From Arcanobacterium sp. (GTDB lineage Bacteria; Actinomycetota; Actinomycetes; Actinomycetales; Actinomycetaceae), in assembly GCA_022778805.1 (NCBI GenBank), contig JALFSN010000005.1, positions 117,029 through 181,028 on the forward strand: a DNA stretch of 64,000 nt, written 5' to 3'. Under the pieces are notes generated by a model that saw nothing but the letters and a program-made list of their open reading frames with translations, was not told where the DNA came from and ran no database searches. Positions 29,318-63,999 of this stretch are shown piece by piece. A program made the translations under genes and the position numbers. The stretch's first letter is position 1. Each line of letters begins with the position of its first letter.

Positions 29318-29391
29318 GCGGGTGTAGTTCATCGGTAGAATGGCAGCTTCCCAAGCTGCAGAGGCGGGTTCGATTCCCGTCACCCGCTCCA
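29318..29391 (+). tRNA. tRNA-Gly (anticodon CCC)
   Basis: A complete cloverleaf is visible. The acceptor stem is GCGGGTG/CACCCGC, the anticodon stem GCAGC/GCTGC encloses TTCCCAA with anticodon CCC, and the T arm is GGCGGGTTCGATTCCCGTC. CCA is encoded. It lies at the left border of the prophage, but the integrases here are serine recombinases, which rarely use tRNA genes. Confidence 0.95.
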
Positions 29392-29420
29392 ATTGGACGT
29401 CGAAAATGATAAGTAGGCGT

Positions 29421-29478
29421 TTGCGTTAGTGAGTACGCCCCAAGGGGGTCAAGAAAACTGCTTGCGTTAGCGAGTGTA
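29421..29478. repeat. Near-identical direct repeats at the prophage left border
   Basis: TTGCGTTAGTGAGTACG (29421) and TTGCGTTAGCGAGTGTA (29462) are separated by about 24 bases, and a third related GCGCGTTAGC follows. They lie between tRNA-Gly and the first recombinase gene and could be recombinase binding sites (attL region); no matching right end was found. Confidence 0.35.
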
Positions 29479-29608
29479 TAGCGCGTTAGCCCTGACCTGC
29501 GTAAACGCTCCCGAGCTCTAAGGCCTCCCCCGCTGTTCCGCTTTCTGGGCATGAGAAAAGCCCGTCCGCGCACTCAAACACGAACGAGCCAGAATCTTCA
29601 TCTCAGAT

Positions 29609-31180
29609 CTAAAGTTGGACGTTCACTTCCTCGCCAACACGGAACACGAACCGGATCGTATCCTCATCCACGATGGCGTGGTCGATGAGTGCGCTCCATT
29701 GTGAGGGGCGAAACTCGCTCACCGGTTCGCCCGCCAGATCGTTAAGTGCAGCAGTCACGGCAGCATGTTTGGCGGTATTCGCTGTAATGTCGGCTTCTAG
29801 GCTCGCTTTGTGTGCGAGCGTCTTACGATAGGTAGCATCGAGCTCGGTATAGCGAGATTGGTAGGCGTCCTGATCGAGCGCATGCCTCTGGTTTTCCGCT
29901 ATCAACGCCTCGATCTGTTCGGTGAGTTCCATGATTTTCGACCGGCACGCGGCGGCTTTCTCTTCTAACCGGCTCGTATCAAACATGCCATCAAGAACCT
30001 GCGGCAGGCAGCTTTGCCGAGGTTGATGGGCGATCAGCTCATTCAAGGCTTGGACGAAAGCACCCTTGATCTGCTCGTCTTTGACAGTCGCAGTACTGCA
30101 AGGCTGATCGCCTGCGTATTTATGGTTGCACTGCCAGACCGTGTGTTTGTATTTCGTGTTCGACGCCCACGTCTTACGCCCATACCATGCCTTACATTGG
30201 GCGCATTTCAGTCGGGTGGAGAACAAGCCGACTTTCGCTGAAGAAGTGTTGGCGTGGCGGGTGGTGAGCTCGTATTGCACCTGATCCCAGATACGCGGAG
30301 CGATAATCGGTTCATGGTTCCCTGACACATAGTATTGGGGTACTTCACCCTCGTTGACCTTCATCTTCTTAGTAAGGAAGTCAGTTGTGAAAGTCTTTTG
30401 CAGTAGGGCGTCGCCCTTGTATTTTTCGTTAGACAGGATTGAGCGCACCGTCGAGGTTGACCATACTTCTTTCCCACGCGGGGTGAGAATCCTGCGGGCA
30501 GCGAGTTCAGATTTGATCTCGCTGATCGCCATACCGTCGAGGAAAAGCTGATAGATCAGCCTGACGGTCGGCGCTTGGGTTTCATCGATGACGAGGCTGC
30601 CATCCTCGCCTTTCTTGTAGCCAAGCAGTGACTTGTAGGGAACCATGATTTTCCCATCTTGAAAACGCTTCCTGTGACCCCACGTGACGTTTTCGGAGAT
30701 CGAGCGGGATTCTTCTTGCGCCAGGCTCGACATGATCGTGATCAAGAGTTCGCCTTTGGCGTCAAAGGTGTAGATATTTTCCTTCTGAAAATAGACCTCC
30801 ACACCTGCGTCTTTGAGTTTGCGCACAGTGGTCAAGGAGTCGACGGTGTTGCGGGCAAACCGGGATACGGACTTGGTGAGGATGAGATCAATCTTGCCAT
30901 TCAAAGCGTCAGTGATCATGGTTTGGAATCCCTCACGGCGTTTCATGGAAGTGCCAGAGATACCCTCATCGGAATACATTCCCGCGAACTGCCAATCACT
31001 ACGGGAACGAATATAGGTGGTGTAGTAGTCGATCTGCGCCTCATAGGAGGAGGCTTGTTCTTCCATATCGGTAGACACTCGCGCGTAGGCGGCGACCTTT
31101 CTGCGTGCTGGTATGCCAGATGAGGCTGTAGCAGATCGAGGTTTCTTTGTTGCTGGTATCGCGGTGACCGTGCGGCTCAT
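29609..31180 (-). CDS. Large serine recombinase, probable prophage integrase
   Basis: A 523-residue large serine recombinase. The N-terminal resolvase domain has AAYARVSTD with the nucleophile Ser (about residue 36), ISGTSMKRREGF and SVSRFARNT. A recombinase domain (about 170-290), a zinc ribbon (CAQCKAWYG and CNHKYAGDQPC, about 340-385) and a C-terminal coiled coil follow. Such enzymes integrate and excise phages between attP and attB. It overlaps the upstream recombinase gene by ATGA, so the two are made together and may act as a pair. Confidence 0.93.
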   Translation of the reverse strand: MSRTVTAIPATKKPRSATASSGIPARRKVAAYARVSTDMEEQASSYEAQIDYYTTYIRSRSDWQFAGMYSDEGISGTSMKRREGFQTMITDALNGKIDLILTKSVSRFARNTVDSLTTVRKLKDAGVEVYFQKENIYTFDAKGELLITIMSSLAQEESRSISENVTWGHRKRFQDGKIMVPYKSLLGYKKGEDGSLVIDETQAPTVRLIYQLFLDGMAISEIKSELAARRILTPRGKEVWSTSTVRSILSNEKYKGDALLQKTFTTDFLTKKMKVNEGEVPQYYVSGNHEPIIAPRIWDQVQYELTTRHANTSSAKVGLFSTRLKCAQCKAWYGRKTWASNTKYKHTVWQCNHKYAGDQPCSTATVKDEQIKGAFVQALNELIAHQPRQSCLPQVLDGMFDTSRLEEKAAACRSKIMELTEQIEALIAENQRHALDQDAYQSRYTELDATYRKTLAHKASLEADITANTAKHAAVTAALNDLAGEPVSEFRPSQWSALIDHAIVDEDTIRFVFRVGEEVNVQL

Positions 31181-32427
31181 GCCAACCTCCCCTCACTGGT
31201 TAAGCCCACCGGCGTCATGGTTCCATCCGTGAGGTGGAAGGTGAGCTGGTGTTCGAAAGCCTCGATCATCACGATTTGTTCGGCAACCACAGCGGGGTCG
31301 AAACTTTGGATGCCAAGCACATCTGCGCAGGCGTGTTCGAGCAGTGTTTCGCGTATGTTGTGCCCGCCGCAAGGGTTTCCATTCCCGGTGCAGGCACTCC
31401 AGCAGCGCCAGAACTTGTAGGAGGTTCCAGACTTGTAGGTGCGGGTTTTGCGTTGATAGTTCTTCCCGCACGCCTGACAGTAGATCCGTCCGGTGAATAC
31501 TCCTGTGTTCTTTGACGGGGTTGCAGCCGGGCCCATCTCGCGCCTGTGCGCGATTTCTGCTTGCACCGCGTCAAACATCTCCTCGTCAATGATGGCTGGT
31601 AGCGCATTGTCGACCCAGTAGCACGGCAGCTCCCCGTCGTTGAAAGCGCGTGTGCGGGCTTGGATTGTGGGGCGGTACATTTTCTGTAACATTTGGCAGC
31701 CCTTGTACCGCTCATTTTCAAGCATGCGACGAAACACTGACCCGTAAAACCGCCCTCCTCCCCGAGAGCGTTTACCTTCAGCGTTGAGCATGGTCGCAGT
31801 TTTCTCCGGGCTAATCCCGTCCAAGAAATTCACAAACAACAAACGCACAATCTCTGCTTCTTCTTCGACGATGGTGAACTCACCGTCTGCCCATTGGTGT
31901 CCATAGACGACGAAGGAGTTCGTGCCACCACTCTTGTACCGGTTACGGATCGCCCATTTCACGTTCTGAGATAGTGAGCGGGACTCTTCTTGAGCAAACG
32001 ACGCCAACAAAGTCAGCAACAGTTCCCCGTCAGCACTCAACGTGTCGATGCGTTCACGCTCAAACCGGACGGCCACACCAAGGTCTTTCAGCTCACGAAC
32101 CGTAGCAAGCAGATCGACCGTGTTGCGAGCAAGGCGCGAGATCGATTTACACAACACAATATCTACACCCCCACCTCTGGCTACTTCCATCAGATCGGCG
32201 AACCCTTGCCGGGATTTCGTTGACGTGCCAGTGACGCCCTCATCAGTGAACACCCCGACGTAAGCCCATCCAGGCGTCGATTGAATCAGGCGCGAATAAT
32301 ACGAAACCTGTGCCGACAATGACGCGAACTGCTCTACGGTGTTGGTTGAGACCCTCGCATATGCTGCCACCTTGACCAGCTTCGGGGCAGGCGGGCGCAC
32401 CGGTGCCACCACGCTAACTTGTGCCAC
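31177..32427 (-). CDS. Second large serine recombinase
   Basis: A 416-residue serine recombinase: AAYARVSTNT with the catalytic Ser, TGTSTKSRQGF, SISRLARNT, a recombinase domain, and a zinc ribbon (CQACGKNYQ with a later Cys pair). It is shorter than its partner and lacks the long C-terminal coiled coil. The GTG start at 32427 follows AAAGGAG; the frame is open ten codons further up. Paired serine recombinases occur in some Firmicutes prophages; whether both are needed is unknown. Confidence 0.9.
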   Translation of the reverse strand: MAQVSVVAPVRPPAPKLVKVAAYARVSTNTVEQFASLSAQVSYYSRLIQSTPGWAYVGVFTDEGVTGTSTKSRQGFADLMEVARGGGVDIVLCKSISRLARNTVDLLATVRELKDLGVAVRFERERIDTLSADGELLLTLLASFAQEESRSLSQNVKWAIRNRYKSGGTNSFVVYGHQWADGEFTIVEEEAEIVRLLFVNFLDGISPEKTATMLNAEGKRSRGGGRFYGSVFRRMLENERYKGCQMLQKMYRPTIQARTRAFNDGELPCYWVDNALPAIIDEEMFDAVQAEIAHRREMGPAATPSKNTGVFTGRIYCQACGKNYQRKTRTYKSGTSYKFWRCWSACTGNGNPCGGHNIRETLLEHACADVLGIQSFDPAVVAEQIVMIEAFEHQLTFHLTDGTMTPVGLTSEGRLA

Positions 32428-32473
32428 GTTTTCTCCTTTCGCGTTAGGTCTATACACGCTCTAAAACCAATAT

Positions 32474-48985: not shown

Positions 48986-50245
48986 TTACTTTGTGGGCTT
49001 CTGTGCAATATCTCTGAGAATCATGCTTTCTGGAACCTCATCTTTTAGCCCGTTAATTTGGACGCTCTTCAACATCTCTCCAGTGGTTTTATCGAATGTT
49101 ACAATACGGGGCATGGTCAGAGGGTCTTGATTATCCTCGACAAGAACAGTTGCTGTGTCCGCATCAGAAGTGAAGTGATAGAGCAGATCTGGGACTCCGT
49201 CGTGACTACCTGATCTAAGATCGTCGTTCAGAACGGACGTCTTTCCTGTTGTAACTTCGGTGCGATAAAGTACACCGTTACCACCGAACCATACCACGTT
49301 TCCGCTTCCATCAAGGGAATTGGCATCAAGTGCAGAATACTCGACATCTTCTAGCGATAATTCCAGATTCTCTCCGTTATCGGTGATAAGCGGTAACCAG
49401 TCCAACGATCCGGTGTGTGTATCGACAACGACGAGCGCAAAGGCGTGTTTGTGGCCATCAGTCTCGTGACGCATGTGCGATGACAGGGTTTCGTCCTCTG
49501 GAAGATGTACACCGTCGTAGATAAGAAATTTCCCCAAGAAATAAATGCGATCCCCAGCACACGGAGCGTCATTTGTGTAAAAGCCTACTTCAGAAAAGGG
49601 AAGGCTGTCAGTGGTCACGGTTGTGTGTACTACAGCGCCCTCGTCAACGATTTGATCGAAGATAAAACGTGTATTGCCGTCTTCTGGTGTCATGGCGTAG
49701 GCGCCATAGACATCGTCACCGCAAGCTGAAATCAGTGGGTAAAAACCGGCCGTATTTAACTTGTGATGCTCGCTTGACTCTGGTCGCGCAACAACAACCT
49801 CTTCTCTGTACCCATTCTCTTGGAAGCCGCCATTGTATACTCCTACGCGGGTTACACCGTCACTGAGGGTGACAAGTCCATCCATGAGTCCGACTCGTTC
49901 TTGTTCAATGGCAGAGTTATCTTGTTCTGTAATCCAATGATCGCTTGTGGCGTCGGCGAAGTTTATCCCATGCTTTGTCCAAGAAATTTCTCCTGAATCC
50001 ATGCCCGCATGTTCAACAAGCCCATAGCTACCGTCAGCACGAACTAAGACAACGTATCCATTACTGGCGCGAGGTATAAAACTAGTATCTCTATACTCGC
50101 TCATAAACACAGCCCATTCATAGCTGCCCAAGTCGATTTTCACTTCATCGTTATCGACTGAACACGCGCTCAATAGTGTGGCTACGCCGAAGATAGAAAC
50201 TATCGCCGTAGCCACACTATTGAGTAACCTACGTTTCATACCCAT
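48986..50245 (-). CDS. Phage-encoded lipoprotein, unknown function (cargo)
   Basis: About 419 residues: signal peptide with lipobox LLSAC (MGMKRRLLNS start), then a mature domain rich in beta strands. Short segments such as GSYGLVEHAG, GNTRFIFDQIVDEG and FDKTTGEMLKSVQING recur in propeller-like fashion. It is predicted to be anchored on the outside of the membrane. It follows a secreted cysteine-hydrolase-like gene by four bases, so the two are co-expressed. Start at 50245 or 50239; no clear Shine-Dalgarno, so translational coupling is likely. An 18-bp hairpin lies inside its signal-peptide codons. It is not a phage structural gene. Confidence 0.78.
   Translation of the reverse strand: MGMKRRLLNSVATAIVSIFGVATLLSACSVDNDEVKIDLGSYEWAVFMSEYRDTSFIPRASNGYVVLVRADGSYGLVEHAGMDSGEISWTKHGINFADATSDHWITEQDNSAIEQERVGLMDGLVTLSDGVTRVGVYNGGFQENGYREEVVVARPESSEHHKLNTAGFYPLISACGDDVYGAYAMTPEDGNTRFIFDQIVDEGAVVHTTVTTDSLPFSEVGFYTNDAPCAGDRIYFLGKFLIYDGVHLPEDETLSSHMRHETDGHKHAFALVVVDTHTGSLDWLPLITDNGENLELSLEDVEYSALDANSLDGSGNVVWFGGNGVLYRTEVTTGKTSVLNDDLRSGSHDGVPDLLYHFTSDADTATVLVEDNQDPLTMPRIVTFDKTTGEMLKSVQINGLKDEVPESMILRDIAQKPTK
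50169..50224 (-). other. Large hairpin inside the lipoprotein signal-peptide codons
   Basis: CTCAATAGTGTGGCTACG and CGTAGCCACACTATTGAG are exact reverse complements (18 bp) separated by 20 bases, which contain a second small stem GATAG-TTT-CTATC. The whole structure covers roughly codons 8 to 26. It may control translation or transcription between the two cargo genes. Confidence 0.8.
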
Positions 50246-50249
50246 AACA

Positions 50250-50990
50250 TTAGTAGGTCTGGTAAGTCTTGGTATACCGCGAATTAAGAATATCGGAAGG
50301 ATAGACGCCTGGACCACCATTTGAGTCAAGATCAATTCCCGTAGCATTTTTATATGCAGCCCAAACAGTTTGCGAACAGTTCATTGACCCCCTCTCTGTC
50401 TTATTTAACGCAAAGATGTAGTTGTATCCTCGCCCTAAATATGTCCGAGCTCGGTTAGCGGCTTTATTGCGGTTTGCTTGGCTAGTGGAAACGTACTGCT
50501 TACGTGCTCCTGATGCCACCTTAACTTGAGTATGCGAGCGTTCTGCAACACCAGAACCAGGGTTGGCCTCAATAATCTTGGTTGTATAGGAATATATTCC
50601 AGAGTGACCATGATTCACGCCCGCAGTAGACGCCGGAGTATAAAACACGTCGCCCCGATAACGTGAGGTGCCAATAGCCTTATTAGCTGACGGTTTCGAC
50701 CCTGATCGAGGCTGAATTCGGGCGTTATTAGCTTGACTGTTTAGCTCTGCTAATGCCTCACTCGCTACCTGAGTCTCAGATGTTCCAGTCGAGATTGCCA
50801 CATCTTCGACAGCCTGCATCATCTCCTCGTAAGAGGCACCTGGACTTTGCTCAACCAACTCAGTAACCAAAGAACGAAGATTGCTATCGTCTCCAGTTGG
50901 TGTATAAGGTTCTGCACTGGCAATGCTTGGGAAAGATAGAGCCAAAGCGAGACCAGCTACACTTGAAGCTGAAAATTTGAATATATTCAT
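50250..50990 (-). CDS. Secreted NlpC/P60-superfamily cysteine hydrolase, YiiX-like (cargo)
   Basis: 246 residues with a signal peptide (MNIFKFSASSVAGLALALS, cleavage after ASA), a helical N-terminal part (about 30-95), and a domain with GDVFYTPASTAGVNHGHSGIYS (His and the strand typical of YiiX/NlpC folds) and NCSQTVWAAYKNATGIDLD (probable nucleophile Cys). Such enzymes cut peptidoglycan peptides or acyl bonds; the substrate here is unknown. AAAGGA precedes the ATG and an AT-rich promoter-like region lies upstream. With its lipoprotein partner it forms an own-promoter, own-terminator unit between large terminase and portal. Confidence 0.8.
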   Translation of the reverse strand: MNIFKFSASSVAGLALALSFPSIASAEPYTPTGDDSNLRSLVTELVEQSPGASYEEMMQAVEDVAISTGTSETQVASEALAELNSQANNARIQPRSGSKPSANKAIGTSRYRGDVFYTPASTAGVNHGHSGIYSYTTKIIEANPGSGVAERSHTQVKVASGARKQYVSTSQANRNKAANRARTYLGRGYNYIFALNKTERGSMNCSQTVWAAYKNATGIDLDSNGGPGVYPSDILNSRYTKTYQTY

Positions 50991-55864: not shown

Positions 55865-57098
55865 TGGGGACTTCTTTCACCACGTCCTCGTATTTGATGG
55901 TTTTCTTGCCCCGCTTACAGGTGATGTCCTCAGCGCCGTAAGTCTCGGCGTAGCGGCGCAAGATAACGGACGCGTATTTCGGGTCAAGCTCCATACAGTA
56001 AGCAATCCGATTGAGTTGGGCTGCAGCCATCAGTGTTGACCCGGAGCCAGCGAAGCAATCGAGCACGATCGCGTTCGCTGGGGTGGAGTTTTTGATTGGG
56101 TAGCCCATCAAATCCAGCGGCTTCGATGTCGGATGCTCGCTGTTCTTGGAGGGCTTATCAAAGCGCCAGATGGTTGTCTCGCTCCGTCCTGCGAACCAGC
56201 GGTGCTTGCCGCCGGTTTTCCAGCCGAACAGGATCGGCTCATGCTGCCACTGATACGGCGAGCGACCCAGCACCAGCGAATTCTTCACCCAGATACACGT
56301 GCCAGACAGATAAAAACCTGCTTCTTTGAATGCCTTACGGAAGTTCAAGCCTTCAGTGTCGGCGTGGAATATGTAGGCGGACGCGCCTGGCTCGCAGACC
56401 GCCGCCATATTCGTGAATGAATTAAGCAGAAACTGGTAGAAGGCCTCATCTTCCATCGAGTCATTCTTGATACTCAAACCCGAAGACGATGTAAACGACG
56501 CATTATAAGGAGGGTCAGTGAGAATCAGGTTCGCCTGTTTCCCGTCCATCAGCCGCTCCACATCCACGGCCTTGGTGGCATCCCCGCACAGCAGTCGATG
56601 CTCACCAAGGCTCCACAGGTCACCTTCTTGCACGAATGCGGCTTGTTCCAATGCAGTATCGAGGTCGAAGCCGTCACCGGTGACCTCGCGCTCGTCACCA
56701 AGGGAGAGCAACTGCTCGATTTCCTCAAGGTCGAAACCAGTCAAGGAAACGTCGAAATCACTCGCTTGCAGGTCAGCAATCAACAAGGACAGCTTGGGTT
56801 CGTTCCACTCACCGCTGATCTTGTTGAGCGCAATGTTGAGGGCTTTTTCTTTGGTTTCGTCCAAATCCACGATGACGACATCAGCAGTATCAATGCCGAG
56901 GTCAGCCATCACCTTTAAGCGCTGATGGCCGCCCACGATCCGGCCGGTACGCTCGTTAAAGATAGCGGGTTCAACATAGCCGAACTGCTCGATGCTCGCT
57001 TTGAGTTTCTCGTACTCAGCGTCACCTGGTTTGAGGTCTTTGCGTGGGTTGTAGTCTGCCGGGGCCAGCTCGGCAATAGAGCGTTGTTCGATTCGCAT
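55845..57098 (-). CDS. ParB-domain plus N6/N4 DNA methyltransferase fusion
   Basis: 417 residues. An N-terminal ParB/sulfiredoxin-type domain (about 1-100; LAPADYNPRKDLK and GRIVGGHQRLKV) is followed by an N6-adenine/N4-cytosine methyltransferase (about 165-400) with the catalytic DPPYNASF and the AdoMet-binding DCFAGSGSTLMAA. This fusion is frequent in Gram-positive prophages. Its start overlaps the metK stop (TGATG), so substrate supply and methylation are coupled. Confidence 0.92.
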   Translation of the reverse strand: MRIEQRSIAELAPADYNPRKDLKPGDAEYEKLKASIEQFGYVEPAIFNERTGRIVGGHQRLKVMADLGIDTADVVIVDLDETKEKALNIALNKISGEWNEPKLSLLIADLQASDFDVSLTGFDLEEIEQLLSLGDEREVTGDGFDLDTALEQAAFVQEGDLWSLGEHRLLCGDATKAVDVERLMDGKQANLILTDPPYNASFTSSSGLSIKNDSMEDEAFYQFLLNSFTNMAAVCEPGASAYIFHADTEGLNFRKAFKEAGFYLSGTCIWVKNSLVLGRSPYQWQHEPILFGWKTGGKHRWFAGRSETTIWRFDKPSKNSEHPTSKPLDLMGYPIKNSTPANAIVLDCFAGSGSTLMAAAQLNRIAYCMELDPKYASVILRRYAETYGAEDITCKRGKKTIKYEDVVKEVPNEPTTT

Positions 57099-58258
57099 CA
57101 GTATTGCACCCCCAAAGCCTCGCGGAGTTTATCCACCCACGCCCAGGCACGCTCCCAGGTCGGATAGCCGTGGCCGAAATGCCCATACGCGGCGTAGGCG
57201 CGAAAATTCGTGTGCTTGCCTAAATCGAGGGCTTCAATCATTCCTGCCGGGCGCAAAGGAAACACCTCAACGCACGCAGCCGCAAGCTGCAAGTCATCAA
57301 AACGCCCGGTGCCCAAAGTATCGACGGTGAAAGCGACCGGGTCGGCTTTACCAATCGCATACGAGATGCTCACCTGGGCTTCTTCAGCGAGCTTCGCATC
57401 CACAAGCGTGCGAGCGACCAGGCGTGCCATATAAGCACCCGTGCGATCCACCTTGCTAGCGTCCTTGCCGGAGAAGGCTCCGCCGCCATGAGGCGCGAGC
57501 CCACCATAGGTATCCACCATCAGCTTGCGGCCAGTAAGGCCAGTGTCGGCTTCAGGCCCGCCGGTGATGAACCGGCCGGAAGGGTTAATCAGAATCTCCG
57601 TGCTCTCATCGATGGGGAGTTCTTGACAGGCTGGTGCGATAATCAGCGAGACAATCTTGGAGTGCAGCTCGTCGTTATTACAGCCGGGCTTGTGCTGCAC
57701 CGACACCACCACGCTAGCCACCCGCTTCGCTTGGCCGTCCTCATATTCGATGCTGACCTGAGCTTTACCGTCAATGCCGAGACCGGGCAGCTTGTTATCT
57801 ACGAAGGCTTCATCGAGGCGCTGGCAAATCCGCTGCGCGTAGACGAGTGGGAGCGGCAGGCGTTCTTCGGTCTCGTTGGTGGCATACCCGTAGACCGTGC
57901 CCTGATCCCCGGCACTAATCGCAGCGTACGCATCCTGCTGCCCGCGGCGCGCTTCTAACGACTGGTCAACGCCGCCAGCAATATCAGGTGATTGGCGGTG
58001 TACACGCACGCGAATACGGAAAGCGCGTGGATTATAGCCACGCTGGGTCAACGCCCGTCGTACCACGGCCGGGATCTCGACCTTGACTTTCGAGGTTATC
58101 TCGCCAGCCACATAAATCCTGGCTTTCGTCGCCAACACTTCCACGGCGACTCGAGCAGCCGGGTCACCGTAGAGTGCCTCGTCCAAAATAGTGTCAGCGA
58201 TGAAATCGCACAGCTTGTCCGGGTGACCAGCACGAACTGATTCAGCGGTCTTCAACAT
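57098..58258 (-). CDS. metK: Phage-encoded S-adenosylmethionine synthetase
   Basis: 386 residues, full length for MetK. Motifs are ESVRAGHPDKLCDFIADTIL (ATP/methionine site), GDQGTVYGYATNE (adenine loop), and GGGAFSGKDASKVDRTGAYM (phosphate loop and catalytic Lys/Asp). It differs from housekeeping copies in several normally fixed positions (ESVRAG, GTVYGY). It would raise AdoMet for the two methyltransferases encoded right after it in the same coupled unit. A terminator lies just upstream, so the cassette may have its own promoter. Confidence 0.93.
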   Translation of the reverse strand: MLKTAESVRAGHPDKLCDFIADTILDEALYGDPAARVAVEVLATKARIYVAGEITSKVKVEIPAVVRRALTQRGYNPRAFRIRVRVHRQSPDIAGGVDQSLEARRGQQDAYAAISAGDQGTVYGYATNETEERLPLPLVYAQRICQRLDEAFVDNKLPGLGIDGKAQVSIEYEDGQAKRVASVVVSVQHKPGCNNDELHSKIVSLIIAPACQELPIDESTEILINPSGRFITGGPEADTGLTGRKLMVDTYGGLAPHGGGAFSGKDASKVDRTGAYMARLVARTLVDAKLAEEAQVSISYAIGKADPVAFTVDTLGTGRFDDLQLAAACVEVFPLRPAGMIEALDLGKHTNFRAYAAYGHFGHGYPTWERAWAWVDKLREALGVQY

Positions 58259-58347: not shown

Positions 58348-58905
58348 CTAAGAGCGTGATTGGAGCAGGCGTTCCATCACGTTATCGCTAGGGGTCGGCC
58401 CGCTGTAATCCACGAGCGAGTTTTGTTTCACGACATCGAAAATCTCATACCACAGCGTGTTCGCCTGCTTGCTAAAGCTCTGGCTCATAGCCACGAACGG
58501 GCTAGCTATTGCCGCCCCGGTGGTCGGATGCTTACCGAGCAGGCCGAAATTAGAAATCGCTTCCTCGCATTGGATGAAGCGGGCGAAATTCTGGGCATAC
58601 GCCTCAATCAGGCGCGGTGCCACAAGCTTCTCACAGCCACGCTCTTTCAACCACCGCCACGTATCCCGATAAATTTGGTCAGCGCCGAGCGGGTTACCGT
58701 CACGCTGCACCGCAGCCAGGTAGTTGCTCGGCTCAGGCATCTCCGAGCCTTCCAAATTCTCATCGACTTCCAAGTTGACTGGGTGGAGCGGGGTGACATC
58801 AATGATGCGTGCATCCTTGCCCTCGGTGATCTTCTCAAACGTCGGGATCGGCTTAGCACCAGCCCCGGCACGCCGCCCACCCCGCAGAGTTCCATCCTTC
58901 GCCAA
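58348..58905 (-). CDS. Terminase small subunit (P27 family)
   Basis: 185 residues beginning AKDGTLRGGRRAGAGAKP, the usual basic N-terminus of P27-type small terminases, followed by helices (IYRDTWRWLKERGCEKL, IEAYAQNFARFIQCEEAI). It recognises phage DNA for packaging. A TTG start at 58905 is preferred because AGGAGGTGA lies eight bases upstream; the ATG at 58926 would place that site inside the gene. An HNH gene usually upstream in this phage type is absent here. Confidence 0.85.
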   Translation of the reverse strand: MAKDGTLRGGRRAGAGAKPIPTFEKITEGKDARIIDVTPLHPVNLEVDENLEGSEMPEPSNYLAAVQRDGNPLGADQIYRDTWRWLKERGCEKLVAPRLIEAYAQNFARFIQCEEAISNFGLLGKHPTTGAAIASPFVAMSQSFSKQANTLWYEIFDVVKQNSLVDYSGPTPSDNVMERLLQSRS

Positions 58906-58926
58906 CGTATCGTCACCTCCTAGCAT

Positions 58927-59132: not shown

Positions 59133-59249
59133 ATGGAAAAACTGATGGATACTCTTCTCGTTGAAGACGATGTTGTCGAACTGGATCATAACGACGATTT
59201 GTGGTGGGTTCTTGCTAGCAGTAACTGGGTTCTGGCCGGGCCGAGATGA
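59133..59249 (+). CDS. epeX: Epipeptide precursor (EpeX/YydF-like)
   Basis: A 38-residue peptide with an acidic leader (MEKLMDTLLVEDDVVELDHN) and a Trp-rich C-terminal part, DDLWWVLASSNWVLAGPR. The pattern DLW...(R)W-(I/V)-L-x-G matches, from memory, the end of B. subtilis YydF/EpeX, whose DLWYF...RWILG segment is cut before Trp and epimerised at Val36 and Ile44. By analogy the mature peptide would be the 15 residues from Trp24, with Val26 and Val33 the candidate D-residues. GGGGGTG precedes the ATG; an in-frame extension upstream has no site. It is followed by a radical SAM epimerase, an M50 protease and an ABC transporter. Confidence 0.88.
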   Translation: MEKLMDTLLVEDDVVELDHNDDLWWVLASSNWVLAGPR

Positions 59250-59259
59250 TTATGATATG

Positions 59260-59312
59260 TCGACTAAGCGGCGAACCAGGATAGTATACTGCCGAGTTCG
59301 CCGCTTAGTCGA
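59260..59312 (+). terminator. Hairpin after the precursor gene, partial terminator
   Basis: TCGACTAAGCGGCGAAC pairs perfectly with GTTCGCCGCTTAGTCGA (17 bp) around a 19-base loop and is followed by TGTTTTCGTTATTT. Placed ten bases after epeX, it would let precursor mRNA exceed that of the enzyme genes. Confidence 0.82.
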
Positions 59313-59343
59313 TGTTTTCGTTATTTGCAGGAGAAGATAAAAA

Positions 59344-60312
59344 GTGAAAAGAATTATCATCGCACCTCATATGCGTTGCAATGCTAGATGTGCGCACTGT
59401 TGTGTCTCTTCTAATCCTCGCGATGACCGGAAATTAAGCGACGAGGTAGTGTACCGACTAGTAGATGAGGCTATTGCTGATAGTAGCGTGGAGGTTGTTT
59501 CTTTCACGGGTGGAGAAGCTCTGCTTCGGCGAGATTTTATTCTTGATCTTATTCGAACAGTTGCTGAAGGAGGAAAGCGAACCACTCTTGTCACAAACGG
59601 GTTTTGGGCTGTAAACCCTAGAGCAGCTTTGATGCGACTTGCGGAACTTCGTGATGCTGGCTTGTCTCTGTTGACTCTTAGCGCTGACGATTTCCATCTT
59701 CCGTTCGTCCCCATTGACCGTATAAGAAATGTTCTTCTTGCTGTTCCCCAAGTTCCAGGCATTCAGGTCAATCTGAATATGTGTGAATCGCAATCCCATA
59801 GTGCAGATAGCATCGTTGCTGAATTAGGTGATCTTCTCGAGGGTATTCCTGTTAGCAGATTTCCAATCACGCCTATGGGAGCAGCATCAAACTTGCCCGA
59901 TGAGGAAATTGTGTATCGCGCGATGTCTACAGATGATCTTCATTGTCCTGGTTTTTCGCTACTTTTTTCGAGTGACGATAGAGCATATCCCTGCTGTTCT
60001 ACCGGCATTATGAATAGTGCTTTATCGATAGGGAAAGCTTCGGAACTTACCATCGAAGAGGCGGCTAAACGTGTCGAGAAAAACTTGTTGTTCTACATTA
60101 TTTTACATGAAGGGTTTTCATGGATTGTTCGTCATTTCCAAGACCTTGGTATTGAGAAATTTCAGCAGCCTTTCAAAGTAGTTGACGCGTGTGATTTGTG
60201 CTGTCACATTTTTGAGAACGATGAGAATCTTTTGAAATTACAGCCAGCGTTAGAGTATTACAGAGAAAGCTATTTGAGCGGAGGTATCTCAGCTAAAGGA
60301 GTGCGAAGTTGA
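59344..60312 (+). CDS. epeE: Radical SAM peptide epimerase (EpeE/YydG-like)
   Basis: 322 residues, close to YydG in length. The [4Fe-4S] AdoMet motif is C12-x3-C16-x2-C19 (CNARCAHC). SFTGGEALLRRDF and TNGFWAVN are typical radical SAM strands. The C-terminal part has LHCPGF, YPCCST (Cys217, Cys218) and DACDLCC (Cys283, 286, 287), giving an auxiliary-cluster and hydrogen-donor set comparable with YydG, where a Cys near residue 223 is the donor (from memory). It should turn L-residues of EpeX into D-residues. The GTG start follows AGGAGA. Other radical SAM RiPP enzymes, such as sactisynthases, are less likely because the precursor has no Cys. Confidence 0.9.
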   Translation: MKRIIIAPHMRCNARCAHCCVSSNPRDDRKLSDEVVYRLVDEAIADSSVEVVSFTGGEALLRRDFILDLIRTVAEGGKRTTLVTNGFWAVNPRAALMRLAELRDAGLSLLTLSADDFHLPFVPIDRIRNVLLAVPQVPGIQVNLNMCESQSHSADSIVAELGDLLEGIPVSRFPITPMGAASNLPDEEIVYRAMSTDDLHCPGFSLLFSSDDRAYPCCSTGIMNSALSIGKASELTIEEAAKRVEKNLLFYIILHEGFSWIVRHFQDLGIEKFQQPFKVVDACDLCCHIFENDENLLKLQPALEYYRESYLSGGISAKGVRS

Positions 60313-61073
60313 CTACCGTACTTCAATACTCCGATGATTCTGTAGAAATTCTGTGTTTAAGGGAGCGCGCGGTTGTGCACGACCGCCTTTCTGATAAATA
60401 CTTTGATGTCAGTGCTGATGCCGTACGCTCAAAAATTTCTGGGTGGCATGAATACAAGTCGGCGATTCCCAGGCCGCTCCTAGCGTTGGTTTTCATCTCG
60501 TTTGGGGGTCTTTTAGCTTTTGATTATATTTGGTTTTTTTCAAGCAATAACTTCCGTTTCGTTATGTCTGATACGGTAGTTTTAGTTCTCTTTCTTGCAT
60601 TTAATATTGCAGCTCATGAATTAGCGCATGTGGCTGCGCTACGTCTATGCGGCAGGAAAATCGACAAACTAGGATTCAAATTTAACTACGGAGTACTCCC
60701 AGCGTTTTATGTCCGGATGAATCAAGTACTGTTATTGAGTCGCGGCGAAAGGATTTTCTGCCATCTTGCGGGGCTATGGACTAATCTTTGTGTTGTTTGC
60801 GCAGTGGTCATAGCTGAATATGCCGGATATTCGTCAATGTCACTCGCGTCTGCCGCATACATATTTCTCACAATGTTAATTATGAATCTCCTGCCGATAT
60901 TGAATACTGATGGACAAAAAGTTGTAACAACATTTCTTGGTGTAGAAAAGCCCAAAAACATTAAATCTGCAGGCAGTTTGCTCAAAACAATTCATGTAAT
61001 ATCAATTATTGCTGCTGGGGCAATTGTTCTTCGTTTTTGTCTCAGTCTGCTTTTACTGTTTCGAGTTGGGTGA
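60309..61073 (+). CDS. epeP: M50-family membrane protease (EpeP/YydH-like)
   Basis: 254 residues with several membrane segments. The zinc motif HELAH (residues 103-107) lies in the second segment, and NLLPILNTDG (about 193-202) carries the third ligand Asp, as in site-2-type M50 proteases. In the epipeptide system this enzyme is proposed to cut the leader. The start is TTG with AAAGGAG seven bases upstream, overlapping the epeE stop by four bases. The N-terminal 50 residues form a soluble PqqD/winged-helix-like stretch that may help in precursor binding; this is inference. Confidence 0.88.
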   Translation: MTTVLQYSDDSVEILCLRERAVVHDRLSDKYFDVSADAVRSKISGWHEYKSAIPRPLLALVFISFGGLLAFDYIWFFSSNNFRFVMSDTVVLVLFLAFNIAAHELAHVAALRLCGRKIDKLGFKFNYGVLPAFYVRMNQVLLLSRGERIFCHLAGLWTNLCVVCAVVIAEYAGYSSMSLASAAYIFLTMLIMNLLPILNTDGQKVVTTFLGVEKPKNIKSAGSLLKTIHVISIIAAGAIVLRFCLSLLLLFRVG

Positions 61074-61078
61074 GGTCA

Positions 61079-61774
61079 ATGGATGCTGTGGTTAAAGCGC
61101 AGAACTTGGTTGTGAGCTATGGCAAGCATGTTGCGCTACGTTTGGATGATTTTCGCATTGGCGCTGAGGCAGGAGTGGTGGGGCTTTTTGGTCCGAACGG
61201 AGCCGGTAAAAGCACGTTGCTTCGCACGATTGTGGGGGATATTGCTAGGGTTCAGGGGAGAATCGTGACTCCTCATCGTGTAGCGGTGAGCTATCTTCCC
61301 GATGAACCTTTTTTGTATCCGTGGTTGCGAGTATCGCAATGCGTTGATTTGTTTCGTAGCCGATACGATGATTTCAGAACTGGTGCTTTTGAAGAGTTTC
61401 TTGAGGGGGCTTCTTTCTCGTCATTAGCCAAAGTGAGTGAGCTATCAAAAGGGATGAGTGAACGCCTTCATCTTGCGTTGATTATGTCTAGGGCTCCTAA
61501 GCTTTATGTGTTGGACGAGCCGCTGGCAGGGGTTGATCCGCTCACGAGGGATCATCTTCTTGCTCTGATCAAGAAATATCGTATTCCTAGCGCTCCGCTG
61601 TTGCTTAGCACCCACCTGATCAATGGCGTGGATTCTATTTTCGATGAGATTGTTCTTGTTTCAGATGGGAAACTGCTGACTCATGATACTGCTAGCCATC
61701 TGCGAGATTTCGGCGATGGCGATTTAGAGCTGGCTTACAAGAGGAGTGTATCGGGCCATGTTAAGAATGAGTGA
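61079..61774 (+). CDS. epeA: ABC transporter ATP-binding protein (EpeA/YydI-like)
   Basis: 231 residues: Walker A FGPNGAGKSTLL, the signature LSKGM in VSELSKGMSERLHLAL, Walker B LYVLDEPLAG and switch His in LLSTHLI. It pairs with the permease gene that overlaps its end. In B. subtilis the EpeAB pair exports or confers resistance to the peptide. The start at 61079 has GGGTGAGG upstream and lies six bases after the protease stop; longer frames overlap epeP and are not supported. Confidence 0.92.
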   Translation: MDAVVKAQNLVVSYGKHVALRLDDFRIGAEAGVVGLFGPNGAGKSTLLRTIVGDIARVQGRIVTPHRVAVSYLPDEPFLYPWLRVSQCVDLFRSRYDDFRTGAFEEFLEGASFSSLAKVSELSKGMSERLHLALIMSRAPKLYVLDEPLAGVDPLTRDHLLALIKKYRIPSAPLLLSTHLINGVDSIFDEIVLVSDGKLLTHDTASHLRDFGDGDLELAYKRSVSGHVKNE

Positions 61775-62504
61775 TTTTCGTCTTTTGGCAGCCAAACATG
61801 GGCGGGTCATGATTCCGTTAATCATGGTCATTATCGCTCTAGCAATCGTTCGGGTTGTGTCAGATGAGCTAGTGGTGCAGCAAATATACGGTATTGGCGT
61901 TATGCTTCTCGAAATTGCGATAACACTGTATGCGTTAGATGCTGTGCTTCGGCTCACTGGCGCTTGTGATGATCGTTTACTCTTGCTTTCTCCTTTGTCG
62001 CGCTGGCGTTTAGCTGTTTGCAATATGCTCATACTCTCCTTGTACCTCCTATGCAGTTATGGTGCTACGTTCCTACCATTAGCAAAGTCCTCATCGGTTG
62101 ATGGGATGGTGCAGTTAGCTAATCTTCTCGGATATATCGTCTCGATATTCACTGGCCTTGGTTTGATGCTGCTCGTATCGTACACGTTGAAAAATATTCG
62201 CACCCGTTTTCCTTATCTGTTATCGGCTTGGTTTGTTTTTTCGGTTACCATACTGCTCGCGGTGATTGCTTGTGTGCAGATACTTAAAAAGGTTGCGCCA
62301 GAGGCTCAATGGCTATTAGGAGTGACCTCGAGCGACTCGATAGTCAACCTATATTCAGCTAGTCTCCCCGTCACTGTTATCGGGCTTGGGGATCAAGTGA
62401 ACAATGCTTTCTTCTTCATCGCGGCGAATATGCTCCTGGGAATCATTGTCTGGTTGAGCGCGTTCATGCTCTCCCGACGAAAAAACAACTTCATACGGCT
62501 ATAG
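61758..62504 (+). CDS. epeB: ABC transporter permease (EpeB/YydJ-like)
   Basis: About 248 residues, six predicted membrane segments, of the ABC-2-like permease class found with peptide self-resistance transporters. The start is placed at 61758 (GAGGAG upstream), overlapping the ATPase gene end; in-frame GTG 61746 and ATG 61767 are alternatives. The gene ends 46 bp before the IS left end. Sequence identity to YydJ cannot be judged by eye; the assignment rests on order and topology. Confidence 0.85.
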   Translation: MLRMSDFRLLAAKHGRVMIPLIMVIIALAIVRVVSDELVVQQIYGIGVMLLEIAITLYALDAVLRLTGACDDRLLLLSPLSRWRLAVCNMLILSLYLLCSYGATFLPLAKSSSVDGMVQLANLLGYIVSIFTGLGLMLLVSYTLKNIRTRFPYLLSAWFVFSVTILLAVIACVQILKKVAPEAQWLLGVTSSDSIVNLYSASLPVTVIGLGDQVNNAFFFIAANMLLGIIVWLSAFMLSRRKNNFIRL

Positions 62505-62550: not shown

Positions 62551-62562
62551 TGTACTGAACCC
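62551..62562 (+). repeat. IS left inverted repeat
   Basis: TGTACTGAACCC, followed by a second conserved block (TTGGAC) shared with the right end. Confidence 0.85.
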
Positions 62563-62607
62563 TGAAAGTTGGACGGTTATTTGTTCAGTTTTAGGGTAGG
62601 GGGTGTT

Positions 62608-63108
62608 ATGCGTCCTGATAGTTCGTTGTCGGTGGAGCAGCGAGGGGCGGCTGTTGATTCGTTTGAGGCGGGGTATGGCTCTCGAGCCACAGCGAGAAAA
62701 CTTGGGTTGCCGTTTCGGCCGGTGAATCTTCTTTATGACAGGTGGGTTCTGCATGGGAGAATGGCGCTTGTGGCACGTGATACGAAAGCTGTTTACTCGT
62801 GGGAGTTCAAGCGCTCGGTTGTTGCTCGTTTTCTTGCTGGTGAGAGTGCGAGGCAGTTGGCGGCAGAGTTTAATTTTTCTTCGGTTGATATCGTGTATTC
62901 CTGGGTGCGGGTGTGGCGTTTAGCTGGTGATGAGGGCTTACGCCCGAAAAGGCGTGGTAGGAAGCCGAAAACGTTGATTGCTAGCCCTGATCCCGAGAGG
63001 AGCGCGACGGTTCCGGATGCTGCGTTAATTGAGGAGAATACGAGGTTAAAAGCAGAGGTAGCGTATTTGAAAACATTACGAGATCTGAGGGATCAGGGGC
63101 AAGGCTAA
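62608..63108 (+). CDS. IS3 transposase OrfA
   Basis: 166 residues, with two helix-turn-helix repeats (GYGSRATARKLGLPFRPVNLL; FLAGESARQLAAEFNFSS, each followed by a W-containing helix) and a C-terminal leucine-zipper-like coiled coil (ALIEENTRLKAEVAYLKTL). It binds the IS ends. The stop TAA at 63106-63108 is in the same frame as orfB, which begins three codons later. Confidence 0.9.
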   Translation: MRPDSSLSVEQRGAAVDSFEAGYGSRATARKLGLPFRPVNLLYDRWVLHGRMALVARDTKAVYSWEFKRSVVARFLAGESARQLAAEFNFSSVDIVYSWVRVWRLAGDEGLRPKRRGRKPKTLIASPDPERSATVPDAALIEENTRLKAEVAYLKTLRDLRDQGQG

Positions 63109-63117
63109 AAGACCCGT

Positions 63118-63966
63118 GTGGTTGCCACTCTCAGATCTGAATACCCGTTGCCGGTACTGTTACAGGTAGCCAATCTGGCGCGATCGACGTTCTATTATCA
63201 GCTGGGGCAGATGCAGGCTCAGGACCGGCATGTGAAGTTGAAACAGGCGATTCGCAAGATTTTCGATAAAAGCCATCAGCGTTATGGTTATCGCCGTGTT
63301 CGGCTTCAGCTGCTGCGTGATGGGTGGTGTGTGTCGCGCAAGCTTGTTGCTAAGTTGATGAGGCAGCTCGGTTTACGCTCTAAAACGAGGAAGCGTAAGT
63401 GTTACAACTCTTACCGCGGTACAACGTCACGTCGGGCTGATAATCATTTAGATCGGCGGTTTGCCACGGAAAAGCCGAATCAACAATGGGTCTGCGATAT
63501 TACCCAGTTCCAGATCTCGGGGCAGAAGCTGTATTTGTCTGCGGTGATGGATTTGTGTGATCATTCGATTCTTGCTCACACTCTTTCGGTGTCTCCTACA
63601 ACGAAAGTGTCCGCGTTGAGCCTGAAAAAGGCTTTTCGTGTAGCGGGTGATCCTGAAGGTGTTCTTGTTCATACTGATCAGGGTTATCACTATCAGCACC
63701 AGTCATGGATCAGTCAGCTAGTTGAGCATCAGTGCGTTCAATCCATGAGCCGTAAGGGCAATTGTTACGATAACTCCGTGATGGAGAACTTCTTTTCTCA
63801 CTTGAAAGAAGAAATGTTCAACAATGACTCATTCGCTTCCATCAGCGAGCTACGCGCAGCGATTGACGAGTACATACAGTGGTACAACACTGAGCGTATG
63901 CAAGAACGGCTCGGAGGGATGACCCCAAACGAATACCGGCAACACGCACTAACCACCATCGGATAG
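63118..63966 (+). CDS. IS3 transposase OrfB (DDE integrase)
   Basis: 282 residues. An HTH_21-like N-terminus (RYGYRRVRLQLLRDG) precedes the rve DDE domain: CDITQF (first Asp), HTDQGYHYQ (second Asp), and NSVMENFFSHLKEEM (Glu). The MSRKGNCYDN block is typical of the IS150 subgroup. GTG start; in the same frame as orfA, separated by one stop codon, rather than in the -1 frame common for the family. Confidence 0.92.
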   Translation: MVATLRSEYPLPVLLQVANLARSTFYYQLGQMQAQDRHVKLKQAIRKIFDKSHQRYGYRRVRLQLLRDGWCVSRKLVAKLMRQLGLRSKTRKRKCYNSYRGTTSRRADNHLDRRFATEKPNQQWVCDITQFQISGQKLYLSAVMDLCDHSILAHTLSVSPTTKVSALSLKKAFRVAGDPEGVLVHTDQGYHYQHQSWISQLVEHQCVQSMSRKGNCYDNSVMENFFSHLKEEMFNNDSFASISELRAAIDEYIQWYNTERMQERLGGMTPNEYRQHALTTIG

Positions 63967-63987
63967 AATCACACTGTCCAAGAATTG

Positions 63988-63999
63988 GGGTTCAGTACA
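63988..63999 (-). repeat. IS right inverted repeat
   Basis: GGGTTCAGTACA, the reverse complement of the left end. Confidence 0.85.

Follow-up and report, generated by a model that had tools for sequence, protein, structure and literature searches.

Epipeptides are peptide toxins of very simple make-up that contain D-amino acids. In the closest described system, epeXEPAB (yydFGHIJ) of Bacillus subtilis, the relevant passages of two papers describe a 17-mer that follows a 32-amino-acid leader and is epimerised at Val36 and Ile44 (PMC8326336, PMC7026026), and a further passage attributes immunity to EpeAB (PMC12871923). A second parallel is sublancin, a modified antimicrobial peptide carried together with its immunity gene (sunA, sunI) on the B. 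subtilis prophage SPbeta, for which the source passage suggests a role in prophage retention (PMC6391423). The hosts named in the epipeptide passages of PMC7026026, PMC8326336, PMC12871923, PMC7614699, PMC9576775, PMC10885120 and PMC7616364 are Firmicutes, and those of PMC9576775 and PMC10885120 name no actinobacterial epipeptide. In the open-licence text covered, epipeptides and Actinobacteria are co-mentioned in at least PMC10373908, PMC9266682, PMC10885120 and PMC9576775, epipeptides also occur together with Actinomycetota, epipeptides and Actinomyces are co-mentioned without a connection, and epipeptide and prophage terms co-occur. Here we describe an epeXEPAB-type locus at positions 59133-62504 of a 64,000-nt stretch of an Arcanobacterium sp. 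genome (assembly GCA_022778805.1, contig JALFSN010000005.1, positions 117,029 to 181,028), referred to below as the window.

Comparison with described loci

Our preferred explanation, which we consider probable, is that the locus is an intact epeXEPAB-type operon carried as prophage cargo, that it makes an epipeptide of about 15 residues in which Leu27 and Val33 are the likely D-residues, and that this peptide would kill cells lacking the operon. With the B. subtilis operon it shares gene order, enzyme family, predicted fold, catalytic cysteine, M50 protease, ATP-binding cassette (ABC) pair and a terminator-like structure in the gap between epeX and epeE. Unlike that operon, it is actinobacterial, apparently occupies a prophage slot, scores below the NCBI cut-offs, has by alignment a core of 15 rather than 17 residues and carries changed residues near the catalytic cysteine. 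Loci of Actinomyces israelii and A. timonensis (L003, L004) have an enzyme of the same clade and the same order X-E-P-A-B, with the Actinomyces core DDLGW..NWV.AGW, but none of 14 proteins of the window phage and insertion sequence (IS) has a homologue in their stretches, and the A. israelii epeE (L003 9748-10692), unlike that of the window, is matched in two different frames towards its C-terminal end. As with sublancin on SPbeta, a modified antimicrobial peptide and its immunity would be carried on a prophage, here as predicted from the genes, although sublancin is a glycocin and its chemistry is different.

All five epe frames are open, on the + strand and in the order epeX-epeE-epeP-epeA-epeB, and GC content is 0.45 in the cluster compared to 0.55 in window positions 1-58926. 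An earlier note on this DNA, made from the letters and their open reading frames (ORFs), had given the same five genes, span and order and had called the cluster AT-rich, and our checks agree with it on each point. The motifs it listed, CxxxCxxC and later cysteine sets in EpeE and HExxH in EpeP (as HELAH), are likewise present, as are the ATPase motifs of EpeA.

The EpeE enzyme

The epeE gene (59344-60312, + strand, GTG start) encodes a 322-aa homologue of the radical S-adenosylmethionine (SAM) peptide epimerase. It matches TIGR04078 (YydG) over its full length with 275 bits (E = 6.8e-82), while the next family, MoaA, reaches 50 bits (E = 1.6e-13). The only close matches among PDB sequences are B. 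subtilis EpeE itself (8ai1/8ai6, E of about 1e-60). An AlphaFold2 model built from 21 sequences (predicted local distance difference test, pLDDT, 91.8) superimposes on B. subtilis EpeE (8ai2) with a template-modelling (TM) score of 0.92 and a root-mean-square deviation of 1.8, compared to a TM score of 0.53 for the next other protein. The earlier note had named comparison with YydG and YydH as one check to make, and grouping of EpeE with sactisynthases or other maturases as one outcome that would overturn its reading; the profile, PDB-sequence and fold searches exclude such a grouping, and identity as a sactisynthase, daptide maturase or other maturase was rejected on the family profile scores.

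PDB chains of the B. subtilis enzyme carrying D210A and C223A mark two positions for alignment. We compared residues in 42 of 49 EpeE rows (L025, L026, L032, L033 and P0020-P0022 were left out), contrasting the 10 rows of the window clade with the 32 others and numbering columns by the window EpeE. Cys218 aligns with the hydrogen donor Cys223, described as critical in the relevant passage on the B. subtilis enzyme (PMC8326336), and Ser205 aligns with D210, a residue that is not known to be required. Cysteine is invariant in all 42 rows at positions 12, 16, 19, 201, 217 and 218. Epimerase chemistry is therefore likely for EpeE, yet by alignment the clade differs from B. subtilis EpeE close in sequence to the catalytic cysteine.

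EpeP, EpeA and EpeB

Directly downstream, epeP (60309-61073, + strand) encodes a 254-aa M50 intramembrane metalloprotease predicted to remove the leader. It matches NF058609 (YydH/LiaK) with 171 bits (E = 2.6e-50), as the earlier note had expected of a YydH relative, as well as Peptidase_M50, and it contains HELAH at 103 and NLLPILNTDG at 193; PDB sequences gave no useful match to it. An HExxH protein follows epeE in 21/21 loci examined. The product of epeA (61079-61774, + strand; 231 aa counted from ATG) is an ABC ATPase with a predicted role in self-immunity, matching ABC_tran (E = 3.3e-18) and containing Walker A, signature and Walker B motifs. The 252-aa protein encoded by epeB (61746-62504, + strand) has no Pfam or NCBIfam match; it has hydrophobic segments, is 37% identical to the protein adjoining epeA in A. 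israelii and gave a low-confidence helical model (pLDDT 63), which in a fold search came closest to an ABC permease (E = 0.067), with no match at E <= 0.001. Its putative role as a membrane permease rests on its position, its hydrophobic segments, the A. israelii relative and the weak fold match. The operon thus contains a YydH-family M50 protease together with an ABC transporter pair.

The EpeX precursor and its predicted core

The first gene, epeX (59133-59249, + strand), is an open frame for a 38-aa precursor, with a ribosome-binding site, AGGGGGTG, recognised by eye ahead of its ATG. Without the window's own sequence, a profile built from 23 further EpeX precursors, chosen by motif and position, ranks the ORF holding EpeX first among the 1004 ORFs of the window (E = 2.7e-9), and that ORF still ranks first (E = 4.6e-4) after the whole Actinomyces clade is removed from the profile. 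EpeX, a short precursor adjoining epeE and having a core of the DDLWYF(V/I) type, is by these profile scores more than a chance ORF, the match being significant only with actinobacterial precursors in the profile. A second copy of EpeX was not found in its own genome, where the next match has E = 0.23.

Aligned cores mostly read DDLWYF(V/I)...W(I/V)xG, with DDLGW...NWVxAGW in Actinomyces and DDLWWVLASSNWVLAGPR in the window. By this alignment the core is predicted to be WWVLASSNWVLAGPR, residues 24-38, with the leader cut after Leu23, and projection of Val36 and Ile44 of B. subtilis gives Leu27 and Val33 as the predicted D-sites.

Our genome collection contained 24 loci with an EpeE relative. 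No precursor was found in two of these, Geosporobacter (L025) and Aminicenantes (L026), whose EpeE relatives are distant. A precursor with a related core is present in 21 of the 22 remaining epe-like named loci, the exception being that of Cutibacterium modestum, in which epeE is found in two frames as a remnant (L023 10001-10653) and the preceding ORF resembles, by eye, ribosomal protein S17. The precursor sits behind epeP, not before epeE, in Streptococcus sciuri (L016 11815) and a Eubacteriaceae genome (L021 11787). A short precursor type ending in VLHW, ILNW or IIHW occurs in Bifidobacterium B4142, a Corynebacterium metagenome-assembled genome (MAG) and an actinobacterial MAG (L008, L010, L013); these precursors are without the second W-I/V site, their enzymes form a clade (support 98/92), and a search for EpeA at E = 1e-12 gave no match in the neighbourhood.

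A hairpin between epeX and epeE

The gap between epeX and epeE contains a perfect 17-nt inverted repeat with 19 nt between its arms (59260-59312, + strand; fold z = -8.0), followed by an imperfect T run, TGTTTTCG, and is terminator-like. Among the 20 epeX-epeE gaps that were folded, 8 reached z <= -2 and 12 did not (one further gap of 24 nt was left unfolded). In B. subtilis, the same gap is described, in the passage concerned, as containing FsrA binding sites and a terminator annotated for epeX (PMC12871923). The hairpin likely serves to yield more precursor than enzyme. Promoter and terminator scans gave values near the shuffle mean, and the terminator scan could not list a hairpin with a 19-nt loop because only loops of 3-8 nt were allowed.

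Apparent placement in a prophage cargo slot

To the left of the operon, on the - strand, a prophage extends from two serine recombinases through terS, the terminase small-subunit gene (29609-58926), and encodes TerS, MetK, methyltransferases, TerL, portal, major head protein, tape measure, tail proteins and an endolysin. The terS gene itself (58348-58926, - strand; phrog_83, E = 2.7e-26) forms the left wall of the slot. To the right, an IS3-family element (62551-63999, + strand; ORFs at 62569-63108 and 63118-63966) with terminal inverted repeats has its right end where the window and its contig, C10, end. The first 141 bp of contig C3 of the same genome are 100% identical to the last 141 bp of the window, and the only further match to the IS in the genome is a partial one, 79% identical, to its left part (C10:114276-114381). 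Early phage genes begin on C3 less than 0.5 kb from the IS end and encode, in turn, an HNH endonuclease, an activator, a helicase, a nuclease, a primase/helicase and a DNA polymerase; another genome of the genus has a prophage (L048) with the same order beyond its terS. When the sequence is read onto C3, GGT stands on both sides of IS3 as a 3-bp target duplication, and a phage element, AATACCCCGTTTGA (AATACCC(C/T)GTTTGA, picked by eye), resumes at C3:145. The earlier note had placed a prophage end beside the cluster; that part did not hold, as phage genes continue beyond the cluster on C3.

In the closest relatives (L050, L051, L052), the same element is found in the gap between HNH and terS. 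It stands beside HNH in L048, where other cargo separates it from terS, and within 450 bp of terS in 5 of 31 IMG/VR loci with both genes. HNH and terS are on one strand in 33 of 40 related phage loci, some of which are near copies of one another, and the gap between them does not exceed 400 bp in 28 of these 33 but is larger in the other five (418, 1065, 1085, 1337 and 4027 bp). Of the largest gaps, that of L048 contains a glycoside-hydrolase-like protein and that of L049 a protein of 344 aa with no Pfam match. Because the gap is small in 28/33 relatives and the largest gaps hold cargo, epeXEPAB and IS3 apparently fill a terS-HNH cargo slot within the prophage, with phage genes on both sides across the contig junction and the slot empty in relatives.

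Distribution and likely transfer

Loci of the epe type recur patchily across Actinomycetota. With the window genome counted, TIGR04078 at E = 1e-35 matched 8 of 213 genomes of the family. In samples of 396 genomes each, it matched 5 from the order and 1 from the phylum. None of these matches was above the cut-off, and there was none in the 9 other listed genomes of the genus. When 9 named actinobacterial EpeE proteins were scored, 7 fell below 300 bits (275-300) and two passed, those of Curtobacterium MCPF17_052 (304) and Microbacteriaceae VKM Ac-2855 (332); a Staphylococcus EpeE scored 467. The NCBI cut-off therefore misses most of the actinobacterial EpeE scored, but part of the branch is within reach of annotation, since two proteins pass and one Joint Genome Institute protein (P0018) is already named YydG family. 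The epe locus is reportedly restricted to Firmicutes according to the abstract of a 2021 paper on its distribution; if so, the actinobacterial loci contradict it.

In a tree of 40 of the 49 EpeE rows (9 were dropped as duplicates, fragments or outliers), the window EpeE fell into a divergent clade of 8 rows (support 100/100) together with proteins of Actinomyces and of metagenomes; Boudabousia, of the same family, was placed with Nocardiopsis and Microbacteriaceae. The backbone is weakly supported, and the deep order is unsure because of long branches. The epe genes are GC-poorer than their surroundings in 12/12 actinobacterial loci measured, by 0.02 to 0.17. Together, low GC, patchy distribution and tree placement indicate horizontal transfer, as the earlier note had suggested from base composition and flanking mobile elements. 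Two Macrococcus/Macrococcoides plasmids carry an EpeE relative (31% identity), and the epeE of a further genome, G104 (L036), matches in two separated pieces.

Proposed mechanism

By homology, the operon is predicted to provide modification, cleavage, killing and immunity. EpeX would be translated, and EpeE, with SAM and [4Fe-4S] clusters, would abstract the alpha-carbon hydrogen of selected core residues and return a hydrogen from Cys218, thereby inverting them. EpeP would then remove the leader in the membrane and EpeAB would protect the producer. Were the operon to travel with the phage, lysogens would gain both weapon and immunity, non-lysogens would be killed and loss of the prophage would be punished, so that lysogens would be armed and prophage retention favoured. 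A bolder version, which we put forward tentatively and regard as possible but doubtful, is that the phage-borne epipeptide acts as a lysogeny weapon and addiction system, and that an Actinomyces-type EpeE with a remodelled active site has co-evolved with a WWVL...NWVLAG core to give a pattern of D-residues unlike that of B. subtilis.

If the preferred explanation is true, an epipeptide operon carried as phage cargo would help to explain the patchy spread of these loci and would connect D-peptide toxins with lysogenic conversion, a connection that sublancin on SPbeta provides for glycocins. The actinobacterial loci, with three or four separate enzyme lineages, also offer natural EpeE variants for testing which residues fix the sites of epimerisation.

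Alternative explanations

Several results weigh against an operon that works as in B. subtilis and is carried by a phage. EpeE (275 of 300 bits) and EpeP (171 of 225 bits) both fall below the NCBI curated cut-offs, which are annotation thresholds and not biological traits, and a profile of 8 Firmicutes precursors puts the EpeX ORF third, at a non-significant E of 0.28. In the enzyme, column 205 (the D210 site) holds S, T or V in 10/10 clade rows compared to E in 24, Q in 7 and G in 1 of the others; column 209 is S in 9 and L in 1 compared to H in all 32; column 223 is M or I compared to F in all 32; column 148 is E or Q compared to V in 31 and T in 1; and column 114 is A in 9 and T in 1 compared to Y in 20, F in 6, W in 3, H in 2 and C in 1. 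These clade-wide changes, along with a spacing of the aligned D-sites of 6 residues in the window compared to 8 in the 8 Firmicutes precursors (by eye), would suit a real operon whose EpeE acts at one site only, at other sites or by other radical chemistry. We consider this unlikely, though it deserves attention, given that CxxxCxxC and the hydrogen-donor cysteine are kept in 10/10 clade rows, Cys283 in 8/10 and Cys286 in 9/10 (where either is lost, the reading frame of that row stops or shifts close to the C-terminus), and that an acid at the D210 column is not universal, Q standing there in 7 of the 32 other rows. For the latter reason we also rejected a firm claim that the enzyme is dead without the catalytic acid. 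The peptide could instead be chiefly a signal or an inducer of envelope stress, in line with passages reporting that the B. subtilis locus was known for LiaRS induction before the peptide was discovered (PMC8326336, PMC7026026); however, added YydF is reported to kill B. subtilis through membrane permeabilisation (PMC7026026), and the window operon keeps a dedicated transporter pair, which makes a signal in place of a weapon improbable. It is extremely improbable that the product is a sactipeptide or belongs to another class of ribosomally synthesised and post-translationally modified peptide whose clusters encode an HExxH protease (daptides, for example). EpeP does score weakly as a daptide protease (29.5 bits, E = 4e-7), but it reaches 171 bits with YydH/LiaK, EpeE matches YydG at 275 bits compared to 50 for the next family, and EpeX has no cysteine from which a sulfur-to-carbon bridge could form.

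With respect to the phage, the slot placement crosses a contig end and its junction rests on the 141-bp overlap, the 3-bp duplication and synteny. The operon might thus be a host cluster that merely adjoins the prophage, with the C10-C3 join an assembly coincidence at the IS end, as IS copies often break assemblies, C10 ends at one and a third, partial match exists. Against this, C3 alone shares the right IS end with C10, early phage genes begin within 0.5 kb, the duplication matches and the phage element resumes, and we regard such a coincidence as very unlikely. A tblastn search of EpeE against phage records and two pattern scans of IMG/VR found no EpeE relative, and the 14 proteins of the window phage and IS had no homologue in 26 other stretches with an EpeE relative (the 24 loci, two of them not epe and one a remnant, plus a second Boudabousia copy and G033); the phage link therefore rests on one genome. 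The cargo could also have been silent or decaying since IS3 inserted, a course for which the split epeE copies of C. modestum, A. israelii (near the C-terminus) and G104 give precedent; here, however, the five frames are open, the motifs are intact and the IS lies behind epeB, outside the operon, and we think decay improbable. On balance, we retain an intact, phage-borne epeXEPAB-type operon as the probable explanation.

Further features of the prophage

A megablast search of the prophage against phages returned nothing useful. The slot between terS and HNH holds, in L048 (9208-11697), an 829-aa peptidoglycan-binding, glycoside-hydrolase-like protein, and in L046 a + strand ORF of 115 aa without a Pfam or PHROG match (285-632) lies between the phage element and HNH and is possibly more cargo. 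Adjoining terS in the window is metK (57098-58258), a phage-borne gene for SAM synthetase of which the genome has two further copies; a role as the dedicated SAM supply of the operon was rejected, as several relatives of the phage also carry the gene, and a look for epe genes in those loci found none. Between portal and terL, an AT-richer segment (48986-50990) is a possible second cargo slot, with one ORF of 453 aa that matches nothing in Pfam or PHROG and one of 246 aa for a C92 papain-like amidase. At the left end of the prophage (29318-32457), a tRNA-Gly gene stands with the two adjacent serine recombinases.

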